Shown piece after piece: positions 3,445-46,837 of a stretch of DNA of 48,588 bases (positions are counted from its first letter, which is position 1; the number at the start of each line of letters is the position of its first letter). The position numbers were made by a program, and so were the translations under genes. Below the pieces are notes generated by a model, which saw only the letters and a program-made list of their open reading frames with translations, searched no databases and had not been told where the DNA came from. Source of the stretch: Deltaproteobacteria bacterium (GTDB taxonomy: Bacteria; Desulfobacterota; Binatia; UBA9968); the NCBI GenBank assembly GCA_016874755.1, contig VGTH01000042.1:1-48588 (forward strand). The letters are read 5' to 3'.

Positions 3445-3609
3445 AATGCTTCGACAGGCTCAGCATGAACGGGATTCACTCAACAATTCAATTTCCAATC
3501 CGTTCACCCTGAGCTCCGTCGAAGGACTCCGTAGAATCTTTCAGGAGCATGCCGGTATACGAACTAAGCTAAGCGACGGGAAGAGGGCGACCAACCGGTC
3601 GCCCCTACA
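3445..3609. repeat. composite intergenic repeat (families B and A)
   Basis: Inverted copies of a 'CTTCGACAGGCTCAGCATGAA'-like element face each other (about 3445-3475 and 3499-3531; the second is in reverse orientation as CTGAGCTCCGTCGAAGG). A family A palindrome with GGGCGACC/GGTCGCCC arms follows at 3583-3608. It lies between two genes of the same strand. Confidence 0.7.
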
Positions 3610-5832: not shown

Positions 5833-7035
5833 ATGAGCGAAGCGAATAACGGTGCCTTGGCGGGTGTACGTGTCCTAGATTTGACCCGCGTCCTCGCCGG
5901 CCCCTATTGCACGCAGTTCTTGGGGGACCTCGGCGCCGAGGTCGTGAAAGTCGAGCAGCCTGGCGTCGGCGACGACACGCGCGGCTGGGGGCCGCCTTTC
6001 GCCGGCGGTGAGAGCGCATATTTTCTTTGCACCAATCGTAATAAGAAAAGCATCACCGTCGATCTCAAAGCTCCCGAGGGCATTGCGCTCATTCGCAAGC
6101 TCGCCGAGTACGCCGATGTGTTGATCGAAAATTTTCGCCCCGGCTCGATGGACCGCTTAGGGCTCGGCGAGAAAGACCTCCGTTTAGCAAATCCGAAATT
6201 AATCTATGCGTCGCTCTCCGGCTTCGGCGCTGACGGACCGATGGCGGATATTCCCGGCTACGACTTGATCGTGCAAGCCTGGGGCGGCCTGATGAGCATT
6301 ACCGGCACGGAAGAAAGCGGCCCGCTCAAAGTCGGCGTTGCAATCATCGATCTGGTCGCCGGCTTGATGCTCGGCAAGTCCATCGTCGCGGCGCTGTACG
6401 CCCGCGAAAAAACCGGCGTCGGTCAAAAGCTCGACACGTCATTGCTAGAAGCCGAAGTCGCCGCGCTGATCAACGCGGGCAGCAACTATCTCGTCGGGGG
6501 CAAGATTCCCGGTCGCTGGGGCAACGCCCATCCGACGATCGTGCCGTATCAGAGTTTTCAAACTGCTAACAGTTTCTTAGTCCTTGGCGCCGCCAGCGAA
6601 AGCATCTGGAAGCGGCTCTGCCCCGCCCTCGGCCGGCCGGATCTCACCGACGATCCGCGCTTTGCGAAAAACGCCAATCGGGTGGAGAACCGAAAGGAGC
6701 TGATCGCGATCATTTCTGCGATCTTTCTAACCCGCAACACCGAAGACTGGATCACTGCGTTGACGAAGGCCGACGTGCCCTGCGCGCCGGTGCAGACCAT
6801 CGATCAAGTTTTCGCCGCTCCGCAGGTACGGCATCGAAAAATGTTAGAGGAAGTCGATCATCCCACGGCTGGAAAAATTAAGCTGGCGGGAATTCCAGTA
6901 AAGTTCTCCGGCACGCCAGCGTCGGTGCGGCTGGCGCCGCCTCTGCTCGGACAACATAACAATGAGGTGTTATCATCGTGGTTGGGCATGAGCGAGAATG
7001 AAATCAACAAACTAAAAACCAAACAAGTCCTATGA
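5833..7035 (+). CDS. CaiB/BaiF family (class III) CoA-transferase
   Basis: This is a predicted class III CoA-transferase, moving CoA between two carboxylic acids. The 400-residue protein has the family's hallmark N terminus (LAGVRVLDLTRVLAGPYCTQ) and a GYDLIVQAWGGLMSITG region. An Asp in GVAIIDLVAG is a good match to the catalytic residue forming the mixed anhydride. I chose the ATG at 5833 because the family N terminus begins only ten residues later and a GAAGAG lies just upstream. The open frame upstream overlaps the previous gene. Together with MaoC and the hydroxyacyl-CoA dehydrogenase it indicates CoA-thioester catabolism. Confidence 0.9.
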   Translation: MSEANNGALAGVRVLDLTRVLAGPYCTQFLGDLGAEVVKVEQPGVGDDTRGWGPPFAGGESAYFLCTNRNKKSITVDLKAPEGIALIRKLAEYADVLIENFRPGSMDRLGLGEKDLRLANPKLIYASLSGFGADGPMADIPGYDLIVQAWGGLMSITGTEESGPLKVGVAIIDLVAGLMLGKSIVAALYAREKTGVGQKLDTSLLEAEVAALINAGSNYLVGGKIPGRWGNAHPTIVPYQSFQTANSFLVLGAASESIWKRLCPALGRPDLTDDPRFAKNANRVENRKELIAIISAIFLTRNTEDWITALTKADVPCAPVQTIDQVFAAPQVRHRKMLEEVDHPTAGKIKLAGIPVKFSGTPASVRLAPPLLGQHNNEVLSSWLGMSENEINKLKTKQVL

Positions 7036-7076
7036 CGCTATCGCCTTTAGCTTCACGGTTGCACCGCAGAGTCCGG

Positions 7077-7123
7077 TCGCCTATCCCCCTTTGCGCCTCT
7101 GCGCCTTTGCGCGAGATATTCCG
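7077..7123. repeat. half-site of family C repeat
   Basis: TTTGCGCCTCTGCGCCTTTGCGCGAGA matches one arm of the family C elements. No convincing partner arm is visible, so this copy looks degenerate. Confidence 0.45.
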
Positions 7124-7141
7124 AATGCATCCGGAGCACTC

Positions 7142-7600
7142 ATGATTACAGGCAAAACCTTTGAAGAGTTCCACGCCGGCGACAAATACACCACCGGCCG
7201 GCGCACGATTACCGAACACGACATCCTCACGTTCGTCAATTTGGTCGGCCTCACCGAGCCGTTGTTTCTCGACATGGAATTCATCCGCAGCGAAACCATC
7301 TATGGTGAACGCATTGCGCCTGGCAGCCTCACCTTCGGCATGGCCGAAGGCCTGACAGTGCAAACCGGCCTGATCCACCGCACCGGCATGGCCTTCGCCG
7401 GTTTGGACAAGATGCGCCTGTTCGGCCCGGTAAAAGTGAACGACACGATCCAGGTCGAAATCGAAGTACTTGATAGCAAGCCCGTCCCCAAGCGCGGCGG
7501 CGGCATCGTCCGCTACCGCCACTGGGTCAAAAACCAGCGCGGCGAAACGGTCATGGAATACGATGTGGCGCGGCTAATTCGGGGCAAAGAAAAACCGTAG
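7142..7600 (+). CDS. MaoC-like (R)-hydratase/dehydratase
   Basis: This is a hot-dog-fold MaoC-like protein predicted to hydrate enoyl-CoA or dehydrate a hydroxyacyl-CoA. In 152 residues it shows the family N terminus (GKTFEEFHAGDKYTTGRRTITEHDILTF) and a region where the hydratase motif lies (ERIAPGSLTFGMAEG). It also has the closing strands with KVNDTIQVEIEVLDSKP. The catalytic Asp/His pair of classical MaoC (D..N..H) is only partly evident. The ATG at 7142 is preferred: the preceding frame is repeat sequence and GGAG lies upstream. It probably belongs to the same transcription unit as the CoA-transferase. Confidence 0.85.
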   Translation: MITGKTFEEFHAGDKYTTGRRTITEHDILTFVNLVGLTEPLFLDMEFIRSETIYGERIAPGSLTFGMAEGLTVQTGLIHRTGMAFAGLDKMRLFGPVKVNDTIQVEIEVLDSKPVPKRGGGIVRYRHWVKNQRGETVMEYDVARLIRGKEKP

Positions 7601-7601
7601 A

Positions 7602-7662
7602 GGGTAAGGGGTGAGGGGTTTCGGATCCGGACCCCTTACCACTTACCCTTCACCCCTTACGA
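7602..7662. repeat. inverted repeat, family D
   Basis: GGGTAAGGGGTGAGGGG is followed by GGACCCCTTACCACTTACCC and CACCCCTTACG, giving an imperfect hairpin in the gap before the monooxygenase gene. It could act as a terminator, but it lacks a clear T-tract and resembles the dispersed element at 44042. Confidence 0.55.
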
Positions 7663-7704
7663 TCGAAACAAGATCAGAACCGTAAGAACCGTGAGATTAA
7701 GAAT

Positions 7705-8664
7705 ATGAATCACGCAACGGCAAATTTCGGCGTCCTCCTCCCAACCCGCGAAGCGATCATGTCGGGTCGGGCCGATCCGTCGGGACTGTATCGGATCGCT
7801 GAGCGTGCCGAGGCATTGGGATTTCATTCCGTCTGGGTCGGCGACAGCCTGACGGCGCGGCCGCGCATTGACGCGCTGACGACGCTCGCCGCCGTCGGCG
7901 CGCGCACTTCGCGCGTGCGACTGGGCACGGCGATATTTCTCGCCGCGCTGCGTAATCCGATCATGCTGGCCTATCAATTGGCCAGTTTGGATTGGATGAC
8001 CGGCGGGCGCGTCGATCTCGGCGTTGGCTACGGCCGGCCGAAAGAACCGGCGGCGGAGCATGAATTTCACATTCTCGGCTTGGACCCAAGCGCGCGCATG
8101 AAGATGAGCGAAGAGCTGGTGCAGATCATGCGCCAGCTCTGGCGCGAAACCGACGTCGCTTACGATGGCAAGTTCACGCGCTTCGAGCATGTGACCATCG
8201 AACCGAAACCCGTGCAGCCCGGCGGCGTGCCCATTTGGCTGGCGTCGAATAATGTCGAACCGGGCTTAAAGCGCGTCGGCCGTCTTGCCGACGCCTGGAT
8301 CAACAACATCAAGGACCCTCAAACCTTCGGTGAGTGCTGGCAGAAAATTCAAAACTACGCCGCCGCCGCAGGCCGCGACCCAAACAAGATTCACCCAAGC
8401 ATTTATTTTACCCTGGCCGCCGGCGGCCAAGAGGCAGTCGTGGAGGGCCAGCAATTTCTCGCCGAATACTACAAGCGCCCTTACGAAGCGGTGGCCAACG
8501 CCATGCTCTGCGTCACCGGTTCCTGGGACCAAGTCATCGACCGGACCGAGAAGTATATCGAAGAAGGCGCGCGCACCGTGGTGCTCCGCTTCGCCGCGCG
8601 CGACCAATTGCGCGCGCTGGAGGCATGCGCCGAAGCACTGAAGCGACGCAAACTCTTGGACTAG
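7705..8664 (+). CDS. LLM-class F420/FMN-dependent monooxygenase (luciferase-like)
   Basis: This is a bacterial-luciferase-like TIM-barrel flavoprotein of 319 residues, predicted to oxidise a small organic substrate using reduced FMN or F420. It shows the N-terminal strand NFGVLLPTREA, the helix/strand RAEALGFHSVWVGDSL and LGTAIFLAALRNPIMLAYQLASLD. The signature WMTGGRVDLGVGYG and the VPIWLASNN strand follow. Its stop is only four bases from the stop of the convergent dehydrogenase gene, leaving no room for a shared terminator. A decayed fragment of a related protein is at 43792-43983. Confidence 0.87.
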   Translation: MNHATANFGVLLPTREAIMSGRADPSGLYRIAERAEALGFHSVWVGDSLTARPRIDALTTLAAVGARTSRVRLGTAIFLAALRNPIMLAYQLASLDWMTGGRVDLGVGYGRPKEPAAEHEFHILGLDPSARMKMSEELVQIMRQLWRETDVAYDGKFTRFEHVTIEPKPVQPGGVPIWLASNNVEPGLKRVGRLADAWINNIKDPQTFGECWQKIQNYAAAAGRDPNKIHPSIYFTLAAGGQEAVVEGQQFLAEYYKRPYEAVANAMLCVTGSWDQVIDRTEKYIEEGARTVVLRFAARDQLRALEACAEALKRRKLLD

Positions 8665-8668
8665 GAAA

Positions 8669-9706
8669 TCAATCGGAGATCTTCAGAAGCACTTTCCCGA
8701 ACTGCTTAGCCTGTTCGAGGTAACTCTGTGCTGCTGCCGCTTCCTTAAGCGGAAACACAGAATCGACGATCGGTTTGATCCGTTTGGCATTCAAGAAACT
8801 AATCAGGTGGCGAAACTCTTTTCGGCTTCCCAACGTCGAGCCGTAGATTCGTAGTTGCTTCGAACAAATCGCCTCGATGTCGTCGTTGGGCTGCGCTCCG
8901 GTGGTGGCGCCGCAGGTGACCAGGCGTCCGCCGATGGCGAGCGACGCCAAGCTCTTTTGCCACACCTCTCCGGCGACGGAATCGAACACGACGTCGGCAC
9001 CGCGCCCGCCGGTCAGCTCGCGCACCGCGTCAACGATGTCTTCTTTGAAATGATGCACGCCGTGATCCGCGCCGAGGGCCTTGGCGCGCGCCAATTTTTC
9101 GTCGCTGCCAGAGGTCGCGATGACTCGCGCACCGAGCGCCTTCGCCGCTTGCATCGTCGCGCTCGCAACCCCACCGCCGATACCGATGATCAAGATGGTT
9201 TCTCCAGGCCGCAACTCCGCATTCGTCACAATCATGCGCCACAGCGTGATCCACACCAGCGGAAACGCCGCCGCTTGCTCAAACGAATAGTCGCGCGGCA
9301 GGGCAAAACAGTTCTGCGCCGGCAGCTTGACGTACTCCGCGTAGGTGCCTTCCAAGCGTTCGCCTAAAACCCGTAAACGAATGCATAGATAGTCGCGATC
9401 GGTGAGGCAAAATTCACACTGGCCGCAGCCCGTGGGCGGATAAAAACAAACCGCGTCGCCGACTTTGACGTTCGCGACCTTGGCGCCGACTTCGGCGATG
9501 ATGCCGGCGCCGTCGGCGCCGAGAATATGCGGCATCGGCACGGCGATGCCGGTGGCGCCCATGCGGTTCCAAATATCGATGTGATTGAGTGACGCTGCCT
9601 TGAGACGGACGACGACTTCATTGGAGCTTTCTATCTTCGGCTCCGGAGCGTCCTCATAGAACAATTGATCGACGCCGCCGAAACCATGCATGCGAATCGC
9701 TTTCAC
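8669..9706 (-). CDS. medium-chain dehydrogenase/reductase (quinone oxidoreductase-like, structural zinc only)
   Basis: This is an NAD(P)H-dependent MDR-family oxidoreductase of 345 residues. The structural zinc loop with four Cys is present (GCGQCEFCLTDRDYLC). The nucleotide-binding GIGGGVASATMQAAKALGA motif and GADHGVHHF follow. The usual catalytic-zinc ligands are missing: the Cys before SDxH is replaced (LNHIDIW), and the GHE motif reads GAD. That makes a quinone-oxidoreductase or enoyl-reductase-like activity more likely than alcohol oxidation. Translation starts at GTG (9706), with GAGGA about eight bases upstream. It converges on the monooxygenase gene. Confidence 0.87.
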   Translation of the reverse strand: MKAIRMHGFGGVDQLFYEDAPEPKIESSNEVVVRLKAASLNHIDIWNRMGATGIAVPMPHILGADGAGIIAEVGAKVANVKVGDAVCFYPPTGCGQCEFCLTDRDYLCIRLRVLGERLEGTYAEYVKLPAQNCFALPRDYSFEQAAAFPLVWITLWRMIVTNAELRPGETILIIGIGGGVASATMQAAKALGARVIATSGSDEKLARAKALGADHGVHHFKEDIVDAVRELTGGRGADVVFDSVAGEVWQKSLASLAIGGRLVTCGATTGAQPNDDIEAICSKQLRIYGSTLGSRKEFRHLISFLNAKRIKPIVDSVFPLKEAAAAQSYLEQAKQFGKVLLKISD

Positions 9707-9797
9707 AATCGTGTTCCTCGGTCAGAAATCGCTAACAATCGCCTGCGCGCAAGTCAAATCCGGGCGTTGGGATTCCTGTCCTTGCCGCGAAAAAAGG

Positions 9798-9826
9798 TTG
9801 ACTCACAATGGCGCTCTATCTACACT
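9798..9826 (+). promoter_or_regulatory. candidate sigma70 promoter of the desaturase gene
   Basis: TTGACT and TACACT are separated by exactly 17 bp in the divergent gap, about 90 bp before the desaturase ATG. Each box deviates from consensus at one or two positions. Confidence 0.45.
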
Positions 9827-9916
9827 GTTGAGATTGCGCTGGAGCCAGCTGCACGCGCGCTTTGGCCTCCGACGGGATTCAGATACCAAACACACCGAAA
9901 GAAAAAAGTCGATCGC

Positions 9917-10822
9917 ATGAATCTAGACACCGAAGTAATGAGACCGGCGCCGGGTGGTAACGGTGATCACCCGCCGCGAAAAACCATTCAGCACCGCTCG
10001 CCGTGCTCCCTCGATTTCCCTCGCACCCTGCGCTTCCTGCTCTTCACGGTGGCAACGCTGGCAGTCGTGCCGTGGTACGGCGCCCGCTACGGCTACACAG
10101 CGCTTGACTGGATGCTGTTCGCTTTTTTCTACGTCGCCAGCTCGCTGGGCATCACCGTCGGCTATCACCGCTTGATCACGCACCGCAGTTTTCAGTGTCC
10201 GGACCCGGTCAAGAAACTTTTACTCATCGCCGGGGGATGGGCCATTCAAAACTCAGCGCTGCGTTGGACCGCCGATCATGCACGCCATCACGCGCGCATC
10301 GACACCGATGAAGATCCGTACGACGGCCGGCGTGGCTTCTGGTATAGCCACTGGGGTTGGTTCTTTCGCAAGGACCCGCATTACACGGAGCGTTATGCGC
10401 CGTGGCTGCACGGCGATCGAGTGGTTCATTGGCAGCAGCGCTGGTTTGGCGCGATCCAAACTTCAAGTTTCGCGCTGCCGCCCCTGATCGGATATTGCTT
10501 CGGGGGCGTCGAGCGCGCCGTCGCCTGTTTTCTGCTTGCCGGCGCGGCGCGAGTCTTTCTCGTGCTCAACATTACTTTTTGCATCAACTCGGTTTGCCAT
10601 ATCTGGGGGAGCCAGCCCTACAGCCAAACCAACACGAGCCGCAATAATTTCTTAGTGGCGCTGTTCACCTTTGGCGAGGGCTACCACAACTATCATCACA
10701 GCTATCCCAACGATTACCGCAACGGTTCGCGCTGGATGGACTTCGACCCTTCGAAGTGGCTGATTTTTACTTTGTCCAAGCTTGGCCTCGCGCACCATCT
10801 GATCCGTTTGCGCGCGCGCTAG
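9917..10822 (+). CDS. acyl-CoA/acyl-lipid fatty acid desaturase
   Basis: This is an integral-membrane di-iron fatty acid desaturase (delta-9 type family), introducing a double bond into an acyl chain. All three histidine boxes are present in the 301-residue protein: HRLITH (HxxxxH), HARHH (HxxHH) and HNYHH (HxxHH). They are placed around four hydrophobic segments. The sequence has the family's WTADHARHHARIDTDEDPYD and GEGYHNYHHSYPNDYR regions. The ATG at 9917 gives a normal N terminus; the upstream open frame crosses the promoter and is unlikely to be translated. It is followed by a convergent gene 36 bases away. Confidence 0.93.
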   Translation: MNLDTEVMRPAPGGNGDHPPRKTIQHRSPCSLDFPRTLRFLLFTVATLAVVPWYGARYGYTALDWMLFAFFYVASSLGITVGYHRLITHRSFQCPDPVKKLLLIAGGWAIQNSALRWTADHARHHARIDTDEDPYDGRRGFWYSHWGWFFRKDPHYTERYAPWLHGDRVVHWQQRWFGAIQTSSFALPPLIGYCFGGVERAVACFLLAGAARVFLVLNITFCINSVCHIWGSQPYSQTNTSRNNFLVALFTFGEGYHNYHHSYPNDYRNGSRWMDFDPSKWLIFTLSKLGLAHHLIRLRAR

Positions 10823-42932: not shown

Positions 42933-43634
42933 CTAAAGAGTCAAGTTGGCGTACTGCTCGCGAAAACTCTTGAGATCGCCGAAGGCATGCTCATCGATAA
43001 TACTCGCCAACCCGAACAATTCGAGCAGCGAATTTTGCAGGGGCGTGGCGGTGAGCAAGAGCTTATGGCGTTCCTGGAGGGCCTTCTTGAGTATATTGGC
43101 GATAACGCTGTTGGGCTTGTAAACGTTGCGCAGCCGGTGCGCTTCGTCGATGACCACCAAGTCCCACGGCGTGTTGGCGACATCGGCCGCCTTGCTTCTG
43201 GCGAAATGATAAGAACAAATGACAATGGAATCGGCCACTTCGAAGGGACGAAAATTGCCTTGCTTAATGGCCAGATTGTACGACTTGGCTTCTAGGATGA
43301 CGCAGGGCAAGAAAAACTTCTCAGTTAGCTCCTGGTGCCACTGCTTGCGCAAATTGGACGGCACAATAACCAAAATCCGCCGCTTACGCTCAGCCCACCG
43401 CTGCGCCAATACCAGACCCGCCTCGATGGTCTTGCCCAAGCCAACCTCATCAGCGAGCAGTGCGCCTTTTGACAGCGGCGAGTTAAAAGCAAACAGCGCA
43501 GCGTCAACCTGATGCGGATTCAAATCCACCTGCGCGCTGGCAACCGCACCCGCGAGCTTCTCCATGCTGTCCGAAGGGCACCGCCTGGTCAGCTCATAGG
43601 CAAAATATTTGGCGTGATAGGGGGTTAGGTCCAA
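42933..43634 (-). pseudogene. SNF2-family helicase, truncated N-terminal part
   Basis: A 233-codon frame encodes only the first half of an SNF2/RapA-type ATPase. It has PYHAKYFAYELTRRC, then PHQVDAALFAFNSP, Walker A in LADEVGLGKT, IVPSNLRKQW, DEAH in VVIDEAHRLRN, and LTATPLQNSLLE. It stops abruptly after SFREQYANLTL, before the linker and the whole C-terminal helicase lobe. A normal start is also lacking: only a TTG at 43634 is available. Such helicases accompany type III-like restriction systems. Together with the Res and Mod remnants it marks a decayed defence locus. Confidence 0.8.
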
Positions 43635-43791: not shown

Positions 43792-43983
43792 CTACAAGCG
43801 GTCTCCGCTAAGACGCGGCATCACCTCCGCGGCCCATTTGCGCATCACATCGTAGTAGTTCTTCGGCGGCAAGGTCAGCAAGAAATTGCCAATGCCACGC
43901 CGGACCAATTCGCCGATGCGGCCGGCACACTCTTCTGGCGTCCCAGCGATGGAAAAGCGCTGCCGGCCAATGAAAAACGAATT
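43792..43983 (-). pseudogene. LLM-class monooxygenase C-terminal fragment
   Basis: A 63-codon minus-strand frame reads as the end of a luciferase-like flavoprotein: IGRQRFSIAGTPEECAGRIG, then GIGNFLLTLPPKNYYDVMRK and AAEVMPRLSG. No upstream part or start is visible. The same strand continues into unrelated sequence. It is a remnant of a deleted gene. Confidence 0.6.
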
Positions 43984-44041
43984 GTCATGCCTTCCGAAAC
44001 GTATCTGACCGTTTGGAGAAAAGTCAACTAAAGAAGGCTAG

Positions 44042-44099: not shown

Positions 44100-44129
44100 T
44101 TGACTTCCGCCAAGCACCAGCCGTAGAAT
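44100..44129 (+). promoter_or_regulatory. candidate sigma70 promoter of the DsbA-like gene
   Basis: TTGACT is followed after 18 bp by TAGAAT (five of six). The ATG with its GGAGG site is 28 bases downstream. It indicates that transcription begins upstream of the TGA-containing codon stretch. Confidence 0.55.
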
Positions 44130-44156
44130 CCAGCAGAATTCGTCACGGAGGTTAAA

Positions 44157-44771
44157 ATGGCTGAGCCACTAGTCTTGGAAGTTTTCTCCGACTTTGTCTG
44201 ACCCTGGTGCTACCTCGTCACCGGGCGTGTCGAGAAACTAAAAAAAGAATACGGTTTAGGAATTAAGCTTACTAACTTCCCGCTTCATCCGGAGACACCG
44301 GAAGAAGGCAGCCAGCGCGGGCCGGAAATCGTCGCGCGCAACAGCCGCATGAAGGTGAACATGGACGGCGAAGGCTTGCCGTATAACGCCGAGCGCAACA
44401 TGTCCTACAACAGCCGCCTGGCACAGGAGCTGGCGACCTGGGCCGGCACCAAAGGTAAAGCAGAAGAAGTCGCCAACGCGCTGTTTCGCGCCTACTTCGT
44501 CGACGTGAAAAACATCGGCAAAGTCGAAGTGCTGACCGACATCGCCGAGCGCAACGACCTGCCCAAAGACGAAGCGACCGACGTTTTGCTCAGCCGCAAG
44601 TACCGGGAAACCGTCGACGACGACTGGCGCCGCTGCGCCGCCATCGGCGTCAACGCCGTGCCAACGTTTCTCGCCGGCAAGTATCTGATGGTCGGCGCGC
44701 AGCCCTATGAAGAGTTGAAACGGCTGATCGAGCATGTGCTGAAAGAACCCGCGCAACAGGCTCGATCATAG
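44157..44771 (+). CDS. DsbA/FrnE-like thioredoxin-fold oxidoreductase, putative selenoprotein (UPWC)
   Basis: This is a DsbA-family (FrnE / 2-hydroxychromene-2-carboxylate isomerase-like) dithiol oxidoreductase of 204 residues if the TGA at 44199-44201 is read as selenocysteine. Residues 1-20 then read as LEVFSDFV-Sec-PWCYL, so residue 15 is exactly the first Cys of the family's CPWC site. The rest is a typical FrnE-like protein: NSRLAQELATWAGTKGKA, ALFRAYFVDVKNIGKVEVL, and the cis-Pro strand GVNAVPTFLAGKYLMVGAQPYEELKR. The ATG at 44157 has GGAGG six bases upstream. A start at 44349 would discard the whole active site. There is no signal peptide, so it is probably cytoplasmic. A nonsense mutation is the alternative. 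Confidence 0.82.
44199..44201 (+). other. in-frame UGA, predicted selenocysteine codon
   Basis: The TGA replaces the codon of the first Cys in the CxxC motif (the second, TGC for Cys18, is intact). It is the only stop in the 205-codon frame before the TAG at 44769. Confidence 0.8.
44202..44234 (+). promoter_or_regulatory. candidate bacterial SECIS hairpin
   Basis: CTCG (44214-44217) pairs with CGAG (44231-44234) and CAC (44219-44221) with GTG (44227-44229). They are separated by an unpaired U (44218) opposite U44230, leaving an apical loop CGGGC at 44222-44226. The bulged U three pairs below a G-containing loop, 24 bases from the UGA, matches the E. coli fdhF SECIS layout. A competing hairpin CCC-U-GGTG/CACCGGG (44202-44225) also exists. 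Confidence 0.6.
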
Positions 44772-44791: not shown

Positions 44792-44911
44792 AGAATGCTT
44801 CGCCAAGCTCAGCATGAACGGATTGTGCTTCAGCAATTTCAACGTTGTTTCCGTTCGTCCCTTCGGCAAGCTCGGGGCGGGCTCTGAGCTCGTCGAAGGA
44901 CTCCGAACAGG
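44792..44911. repeat. family B repeat pair
   Basis: GAATGCTTCGCCAAGCTCAG at 44792 faces an extended inverted part with CCCTTCGGCAAGCTCGGG and GAGCTCGTCGAAGGACTCCG up to 44911. It fills the gap after the selenoprotein candidate and may serve as its terminator. Confidence 0.6.
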
Positions 44912-44986: not shown

Positions 44987-45571
44987 CTAAGCAGCGCCGG
45001 GAACAAACTCAGTTCTAAGATAAATTTCAGCGATCGGAATGCTCACATCCACAGACGTGAGGTGAACGGTTTCGTGAAGTGAATTGCTTTCCCAGAAGCG
45101 CCAGGCATTGTCTGTCTGCTTGGAGAATACTTCGACGTGCACTCTTGCCTGGTCACTGATGAGGTACTCACGAAAACTTGAAATGCCGCGATACTGTTCA
45201 AATTTTTCGCCGCGATCGTAACTGCTCGTGGAATCCGAGAGCACCTCGACAATAACATCGGGATTGAGCAGGGTGTCAAATTGATTGTCAAGAAATTGCG
45301 GCTCGCCACAAACAACCACCATATCTGGATAGGTATAACGGTATTCTCGCTCCACACAGAGTCGAAGATCGCCGGTGAAAACATCACACGGGCGCCCCCT
45401 TAACTGGTTGCCAATCGCCAAGACCAGATTAGTCACTATCCTATTATGGGTAACCGAAGCGCCTGTCATCGCAAATATTTCACCAAAGGCGTACTCATGC
45501 TTCTCGCTCGATGCGCGCTCCATCGCGAGGTATTCGGCTGCGCTGTAAAGGGTGGTGGGCTGCTTTGCCAT
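44987..45571 (-). CDS. Uma2 family (DUF820) PD-(D/E)xK nuclease-like protein
   Basis: This 194-residue Uma2-type protein belongs to a family of predicted restriction-like nucleases expanded in cyanobacteria and some other phyla. Its features are YSAAEYLAMERASSEKHEYAFGEI, MTGASVTHNRIVTNL, YTYPDMVVVCGEP and NPDVIVEVLSDSTSSYDRGEKFEQYR. The Asp and Glu of the last two form the PD-(D/E)xK-like core (PDMVVV...EVLS). The ATG at 45571 fits the family start; the longer frame upstream is not supported. It diverges from the amidohydrolase gene. Its biological role is unknown. Confidence 0.9.
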   Translation of the reverse strand: MAKQPTTLYSAAEYLAMERASSEKHEYAFGEIFAMTGASVTHNRIVTNLVLAIGNQLRGRPCDVFTGDLRLCVEREYRYTYPDMVVVCGEPQFLDNQFDTLLNPDVIVEVLSDSTSSYDRGEKFEQYRGISSFREYLISDQARVHVEVFSKQTDNAWRFWESNSLHETVHLTSVDVSIPIAEIYLRTEFVPGAA

Positions 45572-45635
45572 TCTTGTCTCGACGCCCACCAGGATAACAT
45601 GTTTCCTGGCGGCAATGACAGGCTCCGTTGAGCGC

Positions 45636-45665
45636 TTGACATACGCCCACGCTTGGCGTGAGAAT
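45636..45665 (+). promoter_or_regulatory. candidate sigma70 promoter of the amidohydrolase gene
   Basis: A perfect TTGACA lies 18 bp from GAGAAT (four of six) in the divergent gap, 45 bases before the ATG at 45710. Confidence 0.35.
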
Positions 45666-45709
45666 CCGCCCAATTGAGCATTCGCCACAGCGAAAGGACC
45701 CAACCCAGC

Positions 45710-46837
45710 ATGTATAACATGATCTCTGCTGACGACCATATCGACTTGGGCTATTTACCGCGCGATTTGTGGACTGAGCGCATGCCGGCCGCACTGCGCG
45801 AGCGCGCGCCGCATGTCGAAGATCGCGGCGAAAAGGGTGAATATTGGGTGTGCGACGGCGACAGCTGGGGCGAACATCGCGGTGAGCGCTGGTTTGCCCG
45901 TTCCAATCGCACTTGGTTAGCCCTCGACCGCGGCGGCGTCGGCGAACCTTATCGTTCGACCAATACCGGAAAACGGCTCACCGACATGGACCGCGACGGC
46001 GTCGATGCTTCGCTGCTCTTCCCACCGATCATCGCCATGCAAGTGGGCGACGCGGAGTTGCGCAACGCCACCGTGCGGGCGTACAACGACTGGGCTTACG
46101 ACTTCGGCAAAAGCGCTCCCACACGCTTCTTTCCGGTGGCGATGCTGTCCACGGTGGACGCGCAATCGGCCGCCGATGAAGTCACCCGGGTTGCGAAGAT
46201 GGGTTTCAAAGAAGCCAACTTTCTCGTCAACGATGTTACCTTGGAAATGAGCCTCAAAGCTTGGGACGTCTTCTGGGACGCGGCCGAAGCCGCCGGCATC
46301 GTGGTCTCCTATCACGCCGGCGGCAGCGTGCAGACCGGCACCGTGCGCCGCATCATCGACTCGACCAAGCCGGGCGAGCATGAAGGCGTGTTCGACATGG
46401 GCCTGACCAACGGCGCGACATCGTTCTTCAATCCGTTCGTTAACATGATCAACTTCGGCACGCTCGAGCGCCATCCGAAATTGAAATTCTGCCTCGCCGA
46501 ATCGGCCATCGGCTGGATTCCGTTTGTCGTGCAGGAAATGGACTACCGCTACAAACGCCAGTTCGAGCGCCGCAAGACCACTGAGCTGCCGCTGAAACAT
46601 ATGCCGAGCGAAATCTTCAAGCGCCAAGTCTGGGCGACGTTCCAGACGGATTTTGTCGGCCTGCACCTGACGCATTTCTTCGGCGACGGCCATATCATGT
46701 GGGGCTCGGACTATCCGCACCCCGACAGCACCTGGCCATATTCGCACGACATCGTGACCAAGGACTCGAACCATCTGCCGGCCGATGTGAAGAAGAAAAT
46801 TTATTACGACAACGCCAAAGCGTTGTACGGACTGTAA
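45710..46837 (+). CDS. amidohydrolase-2 (ACMSD-like) family protein
   Basis: This 375-residue TIM-barrel amidohydrolase has SADDHIDLG near the N terminus (metal-site DxH type), YHAGGSVQTG, CLAESAIGWIPF and WGSDYPHPDSTWPYS, supplying the His, Glu and Asp positions. It belongs to the same family as the proteins at 30868 and 48283. AAAGGA lies 11 bases before the ATG; a second ATG nine bases later is possible. It may share a pathway with the ring-cleavage-like VOC gene that follows (inference). Predicted role: hydrolysis or decarboxylation of a carboxylated intermediate. Confidence 0.87.
   Translation: MYNMISADDHIDLGYLPRDLWTERMPAALRERAPHVEDRGEKGEYWVCDGDSWGEHRGERWFARSNRTWLALDRGGVGEPYRSTNTGKRLTDMDRDGVDASLLFPPIIAMQVGDAELRNATVRAYNDWAYDFGKSAPTRFFPVAMLSTVDAQSAADEVTRVAKMGFKEANFLVNDVTLEMSLKAWDVFWDAAEAAGIVVSYHAGGSVQTGTVRRIIDSTKPGEHEGVFDMGLTNGATSFFNPFVNMINFGTLERHPKLKFCLAESAIGWIPFVVQEMDYRYKRQFERRKTTELPLKHMPSEIFKRQVWATFQTDFVGLHLTHFFGDGHIMWGSDYPHPDSTWPYSHDIVTKDSNHLPADVKKKIYYDNAKALYGL

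Follow-up and report, generated by a model that had tools for sequence, protein, structure and literature searches.

The locus at positions 44157-44771 raised the question of whether a TGA inside a gene of the DsbA family is a stop or is read as selenocysteine (Sec). It lay in contig VGTH01000042.1 of a Binatia bacterium, and the window analysed was the whole stretch of 48,588 nucleotides. On the plus strand, the frame opened with an ATG at 44157, was preceded by a GGAGG ribosome-binding-site match read directly from the sequence (44147-44151, 5 nt 5' of the ATG), and comprised 205 codons up to a TAG ending at 44771, giving 204 residues when read through. The single internal TGA (44199-44201) was codon 15, in the context MAEPLVLEVFSDFV*PWCYL. 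It occupied the position of the first Cys of the CPWC motif, and the TGC at 44208-44210 encoded Cys18 of the resulting UPWC motif. The earlier note had described this frame, its start and GGAGG and the placement of its single TGA in the same way, and the sequence, translation and codon alignment bore out each of these points. The read-through frame matched the Pfam family PF01323 (DSBA) over residues 7-191 of 204 with 110.4 bits (cut-off 25.6, E 1.2e-31), in line with the DsbA/FrnE family assigned before. NCBIfam gave two matches only, both far under their cut-offs, and a tblastn search of plasmids returned 785 records, every one below 60% identity. Without read-through, the standard open reading frame was 44349-44771 (140 amino acids). 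Annotation from this start would remove 64 N-terminal residues and with them the active site, as the earlier note had foreseen, and the enzyme would then look inactive; relatives would be affected likewise. A promoter had also been claimed upstream; one consensus match was indeed present (TTGACT-18-TAGAAT, 44100-44129), but one match in 1001 bases scanned, against a shuffle mean of 0.3, is no evidence of promoter function.

Comparison of the site codon across homologous loci gave the first answer. A Sec-type query found 233 relatives, of which the best 80 were used, a choice that makes the ratio of TGA to Cys codons lean towards TGA, and L075 was omitted because its site could not be recovered. 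In the remaining 79 loci, many of them from metagenome bins, the codon was TGA in 71, TGC in 6 and TGT in 2, with no other codon present; the alternation that the earlier note had proposed to look for was thus found. The motif was U/C-P-W-C throughout, apart from UPYC in four rows (L046, L059, L061, and L077). Since the same TGA stood in the same motif in 71 homologous loci, its position in a CPWC-type motif is not a matter of chance. No other internal stop was found in the 79 rows except in L016, in which the similarity ended at residue 125 and the frame stopped at codon 143; L017 and L067 ran off their sequences.

The earlier note had called for a search for selA, selB, selC (tRNA-Sec), and selD, and all four were present in the source genome (G000; 5.56 Mb in 101 contigs, listed as 99.55% complete and 3.1% contaminated). 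The genes for SelA (E 7.8e-157, 9365-10462), SelB (E 6.0e-123, 7392-9278), and SelD (E 4.4e-114, 6375-7301) adjoined one another on contig C16. No tRNA gene lay within the window itself; the single tRNA-Sec that exceeded the gathering score (75.9 bits versus 47) sat on contig C40, and ARAGORN also called it as Sec with the anticodon TCA. The SelD gene contained an in-frame TGA at KAAGUAAK, where SelD proteins usually carry Sec, and this genome therefore probably encodes a second selenoprotein. In a set of 14 named control genomes, tRNA-Sec passed the cut-off in 5 and SelA, SelB, and SelD in 2 each, and the tRNA-Sec score by itself is therefore not fully specific. Weaker matches to tRNA-Sec, SelB, and SelD occurred in all 14 controls, and only matches over the cut-off were counted for this reason.

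A putative bacterial SECIS hairpin was located at 44214-44234 on the plus strand, +13 to +33 after the UGA, and is predicted from covariation, synonymous constraint, and the bSECIS model. It had a stem of 7 bp plus one U.U mismatch, an apical loop of 5 nt (CGGGC, 44222-44226), and a spacing of 20 nt from the UGA. RNAalifold on 72 Sec sequences (65 distinct) returned the same hairpin, +13 to +33, with a break at +17/+29, and 95.8% of the hairpin cells were paired in the Sec forms. The covariation score was 0.230 against a shuffle mean of 0.125 and was reached by none of 500 shuffles; six versions of the hairpin slid along the alignment scored at most 0.159. Two pairs, A-U/G-C and U-A/C-G, showed changes of both partners in 10 and 12 of the 65 distinct rows. 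Two of the five hairpin measures, the number of pairs with both-side changes and that of further pair types, were not above shuffles (377 of 500 each). More pair types were counted in one slid version than in the hairpin itself (8 versus 7). In the eight Cys forms, 55.4% of the hairpin cells were paired, and just 18 of 500 shuffles attained the covariation score of these forms. The hairpin did not fold in the Cys forms L072 and L086, but still folded at -7.3 kcal/mol, in a remnant-like manner, in L084 (TGT, titled Geobacteraceae).

In the part of PMC13188914 available, the published bSECIS is described as having a loop of 3-9 nt with G in the first two positions, a stem of 4-16 bp, a distance of 16-37 nt from the UGA, and an energy of at most -7.5 kcal/mol. 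The hairpin lay within these ranges for loop size, G, spacing, and stem length, and all 72 Sec rows had G in the first two loop positions. The energy of the bare 21-nt hairpin was -7.2 kcal/mol against the limit of -7.5, and the mean over the 72 Sec rows was -4.8 kcal/mol. Also counting against the hairpin, recoding with synonymous codons yielded all 6 core pairs 233 times in 20000 and an equally low energy 21 times in 3000. Synonymous change was strongly reduced across codons 16-26: in the seven closest loci (L009-L013, L016, and L017), 0 or 1 of about 8 sites had changed (pS 0 to 0.13, versus 0.49 to 0.70 downstream), and the values were 27% versus 84% downstream in L014 and 40% versus 73% in L015. 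A competing 5' hairpin from +2 to +24 was the single-sequence energy minimum; its covariation was not beyond that of shuffles, and it was set aside for this reason. Rfam at the gathering threshold gave no match within the window, which carries no conclusion on a SECIS.

The distribution of the gene and of the Sec machinery was then compared in 58 related genomes, 53 of which showed some match at E <= 0.001. A long homologue with the TGA was found in 28 genomes. The 29 loci covering the site were re-read and gave 28 TGA and 1 TGC, the latter in a locus of 36% identity; L130 did not reach the site. These loci and the best-80 set overlap in origin and are not independent. Ahead of codon 195, the TGA was the only stop in all 28 TGA loci; 27 ended at codons 195-216, one ran off its contig, and the second stop listed in three rows, at codon 195 or 202, was the natural end. 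Disabling mutations in sister strains had been named in the earlier note as evidence that would speak against a selenoprotein; they were sought in these loci of related genomes, and the frames were intact apart from the TGA. The same-genus genomes G001, G003, and G004 carried the TGA gene. The same-genus G002 had no gene and no SelB or tRNA-Sec over the cut-off, and its sole SelA match was weak (E 1.0e-5), formally over the Pfam cut-off. Strong SelA (E <1e-60) was present in 26 of the 28 genomes with the TGA gene, the exceptions being G009 and G014; SelB was sought in the source genome and 10 relatives, and tRNA-Sec in the source genome and 5 relatives. G014 contained tRNA-Sec, with no SelA match and no SelB over the cut-off, and these gaps fit a missing contig. 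In G009, listed as 100% complete, none of SelA (best E 5.4e-4), SelB, and tRNA-Sec was found over the cut-off, and yet its TGA gene (L112) was intact with 6 of 6 hairpin pairs kept, which argues against a strict linkage of gene and machinery. G009 may be missing contigs, may contain a misbinned contig, or may have lost its Sec system recently. SelA occurred together with no match to the gene in G010, G016, and G017 (3 of the 58 relatives) and also in G035, so not every Sec user has the gene.

At lower similarity, 12 distant DsbA-like places (23-34% identity) each showed a single TGA within the frame of the match: G020:C339, G023:C300, G036:C23, G037:C91, G039:C272, G043:C41, G044:C21, G049:C45, G050:C1, G053:C110, G056:C59, and G057:C65. 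Some of these may be further Sec paralogues and others may merely end there.

The comparison thus revealed a TGA that was in frame, conserved, and exchanged with Cys codons only, followed by a covarying hairpin and accompanied by Sec machinery in the genome. On this sequence evidence, the gene almost certainly encodes a FrnE-type thiol-disulfide oxidoreductase (DsbA family, PF01323), probably cytoplasmic, with Sec as the attacking residue, and the selenoprotein proposed by the earlier note is supported by the machinery, the codon exchange, and the hairpin. Neither the SECIS hairpin nor the prior publication of this kind of selenoprotein had been mentioned there. The alternative that survives best, that the TGA is a true stop in a pseudogene or ends a short leader peptide ahead of a separately started 140-residue protein from 44349, is highly improbable. 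An open reading frame does exist at 44349-44771, and G009 keeps its TGA gene with no Sec machinery detected; against a true stop stand the absence of further internal stops in all 28 TGA loci of the relatives and in the 79 rows except L016, the restriction of the codon to TGA, TGC, or TGT, the covarying hairpin tied to the TGA, and the selection on the whole frame. Calculated on 9 of the 80 loci, whole-frame dN/dS was 0.10-0.16 in the seven closest and 0.13 in L015, and the synonymous sites of L014 were saturated. Decoding of UGA as Cys or Trp through a changed code or a suppressor tRNA, for which no support was found here, is more remote still. Such reassignment exists in other lineages, but the source genome has tRNA-Sec, SelA, SelB, and SelD, the hairpin is specific to the gene, UGA is the ordinary end of homologues in same-genus and other relatives (codon 205 in L102, codon 201 in L107), and the frame of the genome's own SelB appears to end at TGA. 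A sequencing or assembly error in a Cys codon, conceivable for a draft of 101 contigs, is the least credible of all, because 71 of the 79 loci, drawn from public assemblies, carry the same TGA, as do the same-genus genomes G001, G003, and G004.

The fold predicted for the protein was closest to that of Deinococcus FrnE. An AlphaFold2 model built from 41 sequences (alignment A3, the window and 40 of the 80 loci) had a pLDDT of 94, and in a Foldseek search of the PDB the top five matches were all entries of Deinococcus radiodurans FrnE, with TM (query) 0.84-0.89. The best PDB match by phmmer was the same protein (E 2.7e-14). The invariant residues of the 41 sequences included D12, position 15, P16, C18, H44, P45, N85, E91, V168, and P169. 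In the model, the C/U-x-x-C motif started the first helix (16-32), and the Pro loop (V168 and P169) preceded a late strand (170-173); P169 is presumably cis, as is usual for the DsbA fold. The first strand began at residue 6, leaving no room for a signal peptide, which suggests, with less certainty, a cytoplasmic role as reductase or isomerase. The domain evidence fitted a PF01323-type thiol-disulfide oxidoreductase, and the enzymatic activity is predicted. Delivery of Sec-tRNA-Sec to UGA by SelB bound to a hairpin is the established route of Sec insertion in bacteria. By this route, SelB on the predicted hairpin would generate the U-P-W-C redox motif, in which Sec15 would attack the substrate disulfide and Cys18 would resolve the mixed selenenyl-sulfide. 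The FrnE proteins are predicted cytoplasmic oxidoreductases of the DsbA family according to the part of PMC8945050 available, where a role in regeneration is proposed for the C-terminal CXXXXC of D. radiodurans FrnE and some FrnE proteins are described as having no such motif. D. radiodurans FrnE (5cnw, 5co3, 5coh, 5cp1, and 5xwh), described as cytoplasmic, shares the DsbA-like domain with the present protein, but has CPWC in place of UPWC. Its CXXXXC was absent from the 204-residue translation, which places the present protein outside the D. radiodurans subclass. SCO1869 of Streptomyces coelicolor (3gl5, with the structure title "probable DsbA oxidoreductase") shared the DsbA/FrnE-like fold with TM (query) 0.87 and ranked next after the five FrnE entries in the Foldseek search.

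The present gene has the same Pfam domain, a UXXC motif, and a SECIS after the UGA in common with the published DsbA-like selenoproteins (COG2761/PF01323); COG2761 is the FrnE cluster, and identity at the subfamily level is drawn from the COG and Pfam names and the motif. The accessible text of PMC1088965 reports nine DsbA-like selenoprotein sequences of COG2761 with UXXC and SECIS elements, and that of PMC1794560 lists such proteins in Anaeromyxobacter dehalogenans, Desulfovibrio desulfuricans, and Desulfotomaculum reducens. In the excerpts of two reviews, the kind is tabulated as PF01323 with UxxC (PMC9312934 and PMC13188914), under the name "DsbA-like protein form 1" in the latter. PMC12013277 contains none of the terms DsbA, Dsb, and UXXC, and a literature search combining Binatota and selenocysteine turned up one paper, on methane cycling in sponges. 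Selenoproteins of this kind have been published since 2005; the gene is a well-supported further case, with a covarying SECIS, and does not reveal a new kind of biology.

The sequence set is also usable for the study of Sec/Cys exchange. By title or classification, its loci belonged to the Thermodesulfobacteriota, Binatota, Nitrospirota, Acidobacteriota, and Pseudomonadota. A tree of the 80 rows required 4 changes of the Sec/Cys label, compared with a shuffled mean of 7.8; the alignment carried the same letter at the Sec/Cys site in all rows, so the site itself gave the tree no signal. The Cys rows formed a gammaproteobacterial group of 5 and the single rows L072, L084, and L086 among Sec rows. 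The direction of change is not proven by this tree, owing to the long branches of L072 and L086 and the midpoint root. The hairpin of L084 suggests a remnant after secondary loss of Sec, and remnant SECIS-like structures after Cys codons are described for other families in the available part of PMC1794560. We would only tentatively propose that Sec is the old standing state of this FrnE branch across several phyla and that some Cys forms are secondary losses with a remnant hairpin. A Sec-ancestral branch, if true, would be at odds with the trend from Cys to Sec that the same excerpt reports for thiol-redox selenoproteins.

The neighbourhood of the gene comprised, on the minus strand, a piece matching an SNF2-related domain (42936-43634) and a Uma2 putative restriction endonuclease (44990-45739), and the gene therefore stands in no obvious redox operon. 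Upstream, a short open stretch on the minus strand (43795-44037) resembled by eye the C-terminal end of a luciferase-like oxidoreductase; Pfam gave no match for it, and it is possibly a gene remnant. A 17-base repeat, AAGCTCAGSATGAACGG, occurred in three copies with at most 2 mismatches (44805-44821, 3456-3472, and 3500-3516), against 0.01 copies expected in shuffles. One copy lay just 3' of the gene, and the repeat looks like a dispersed REP-like element.
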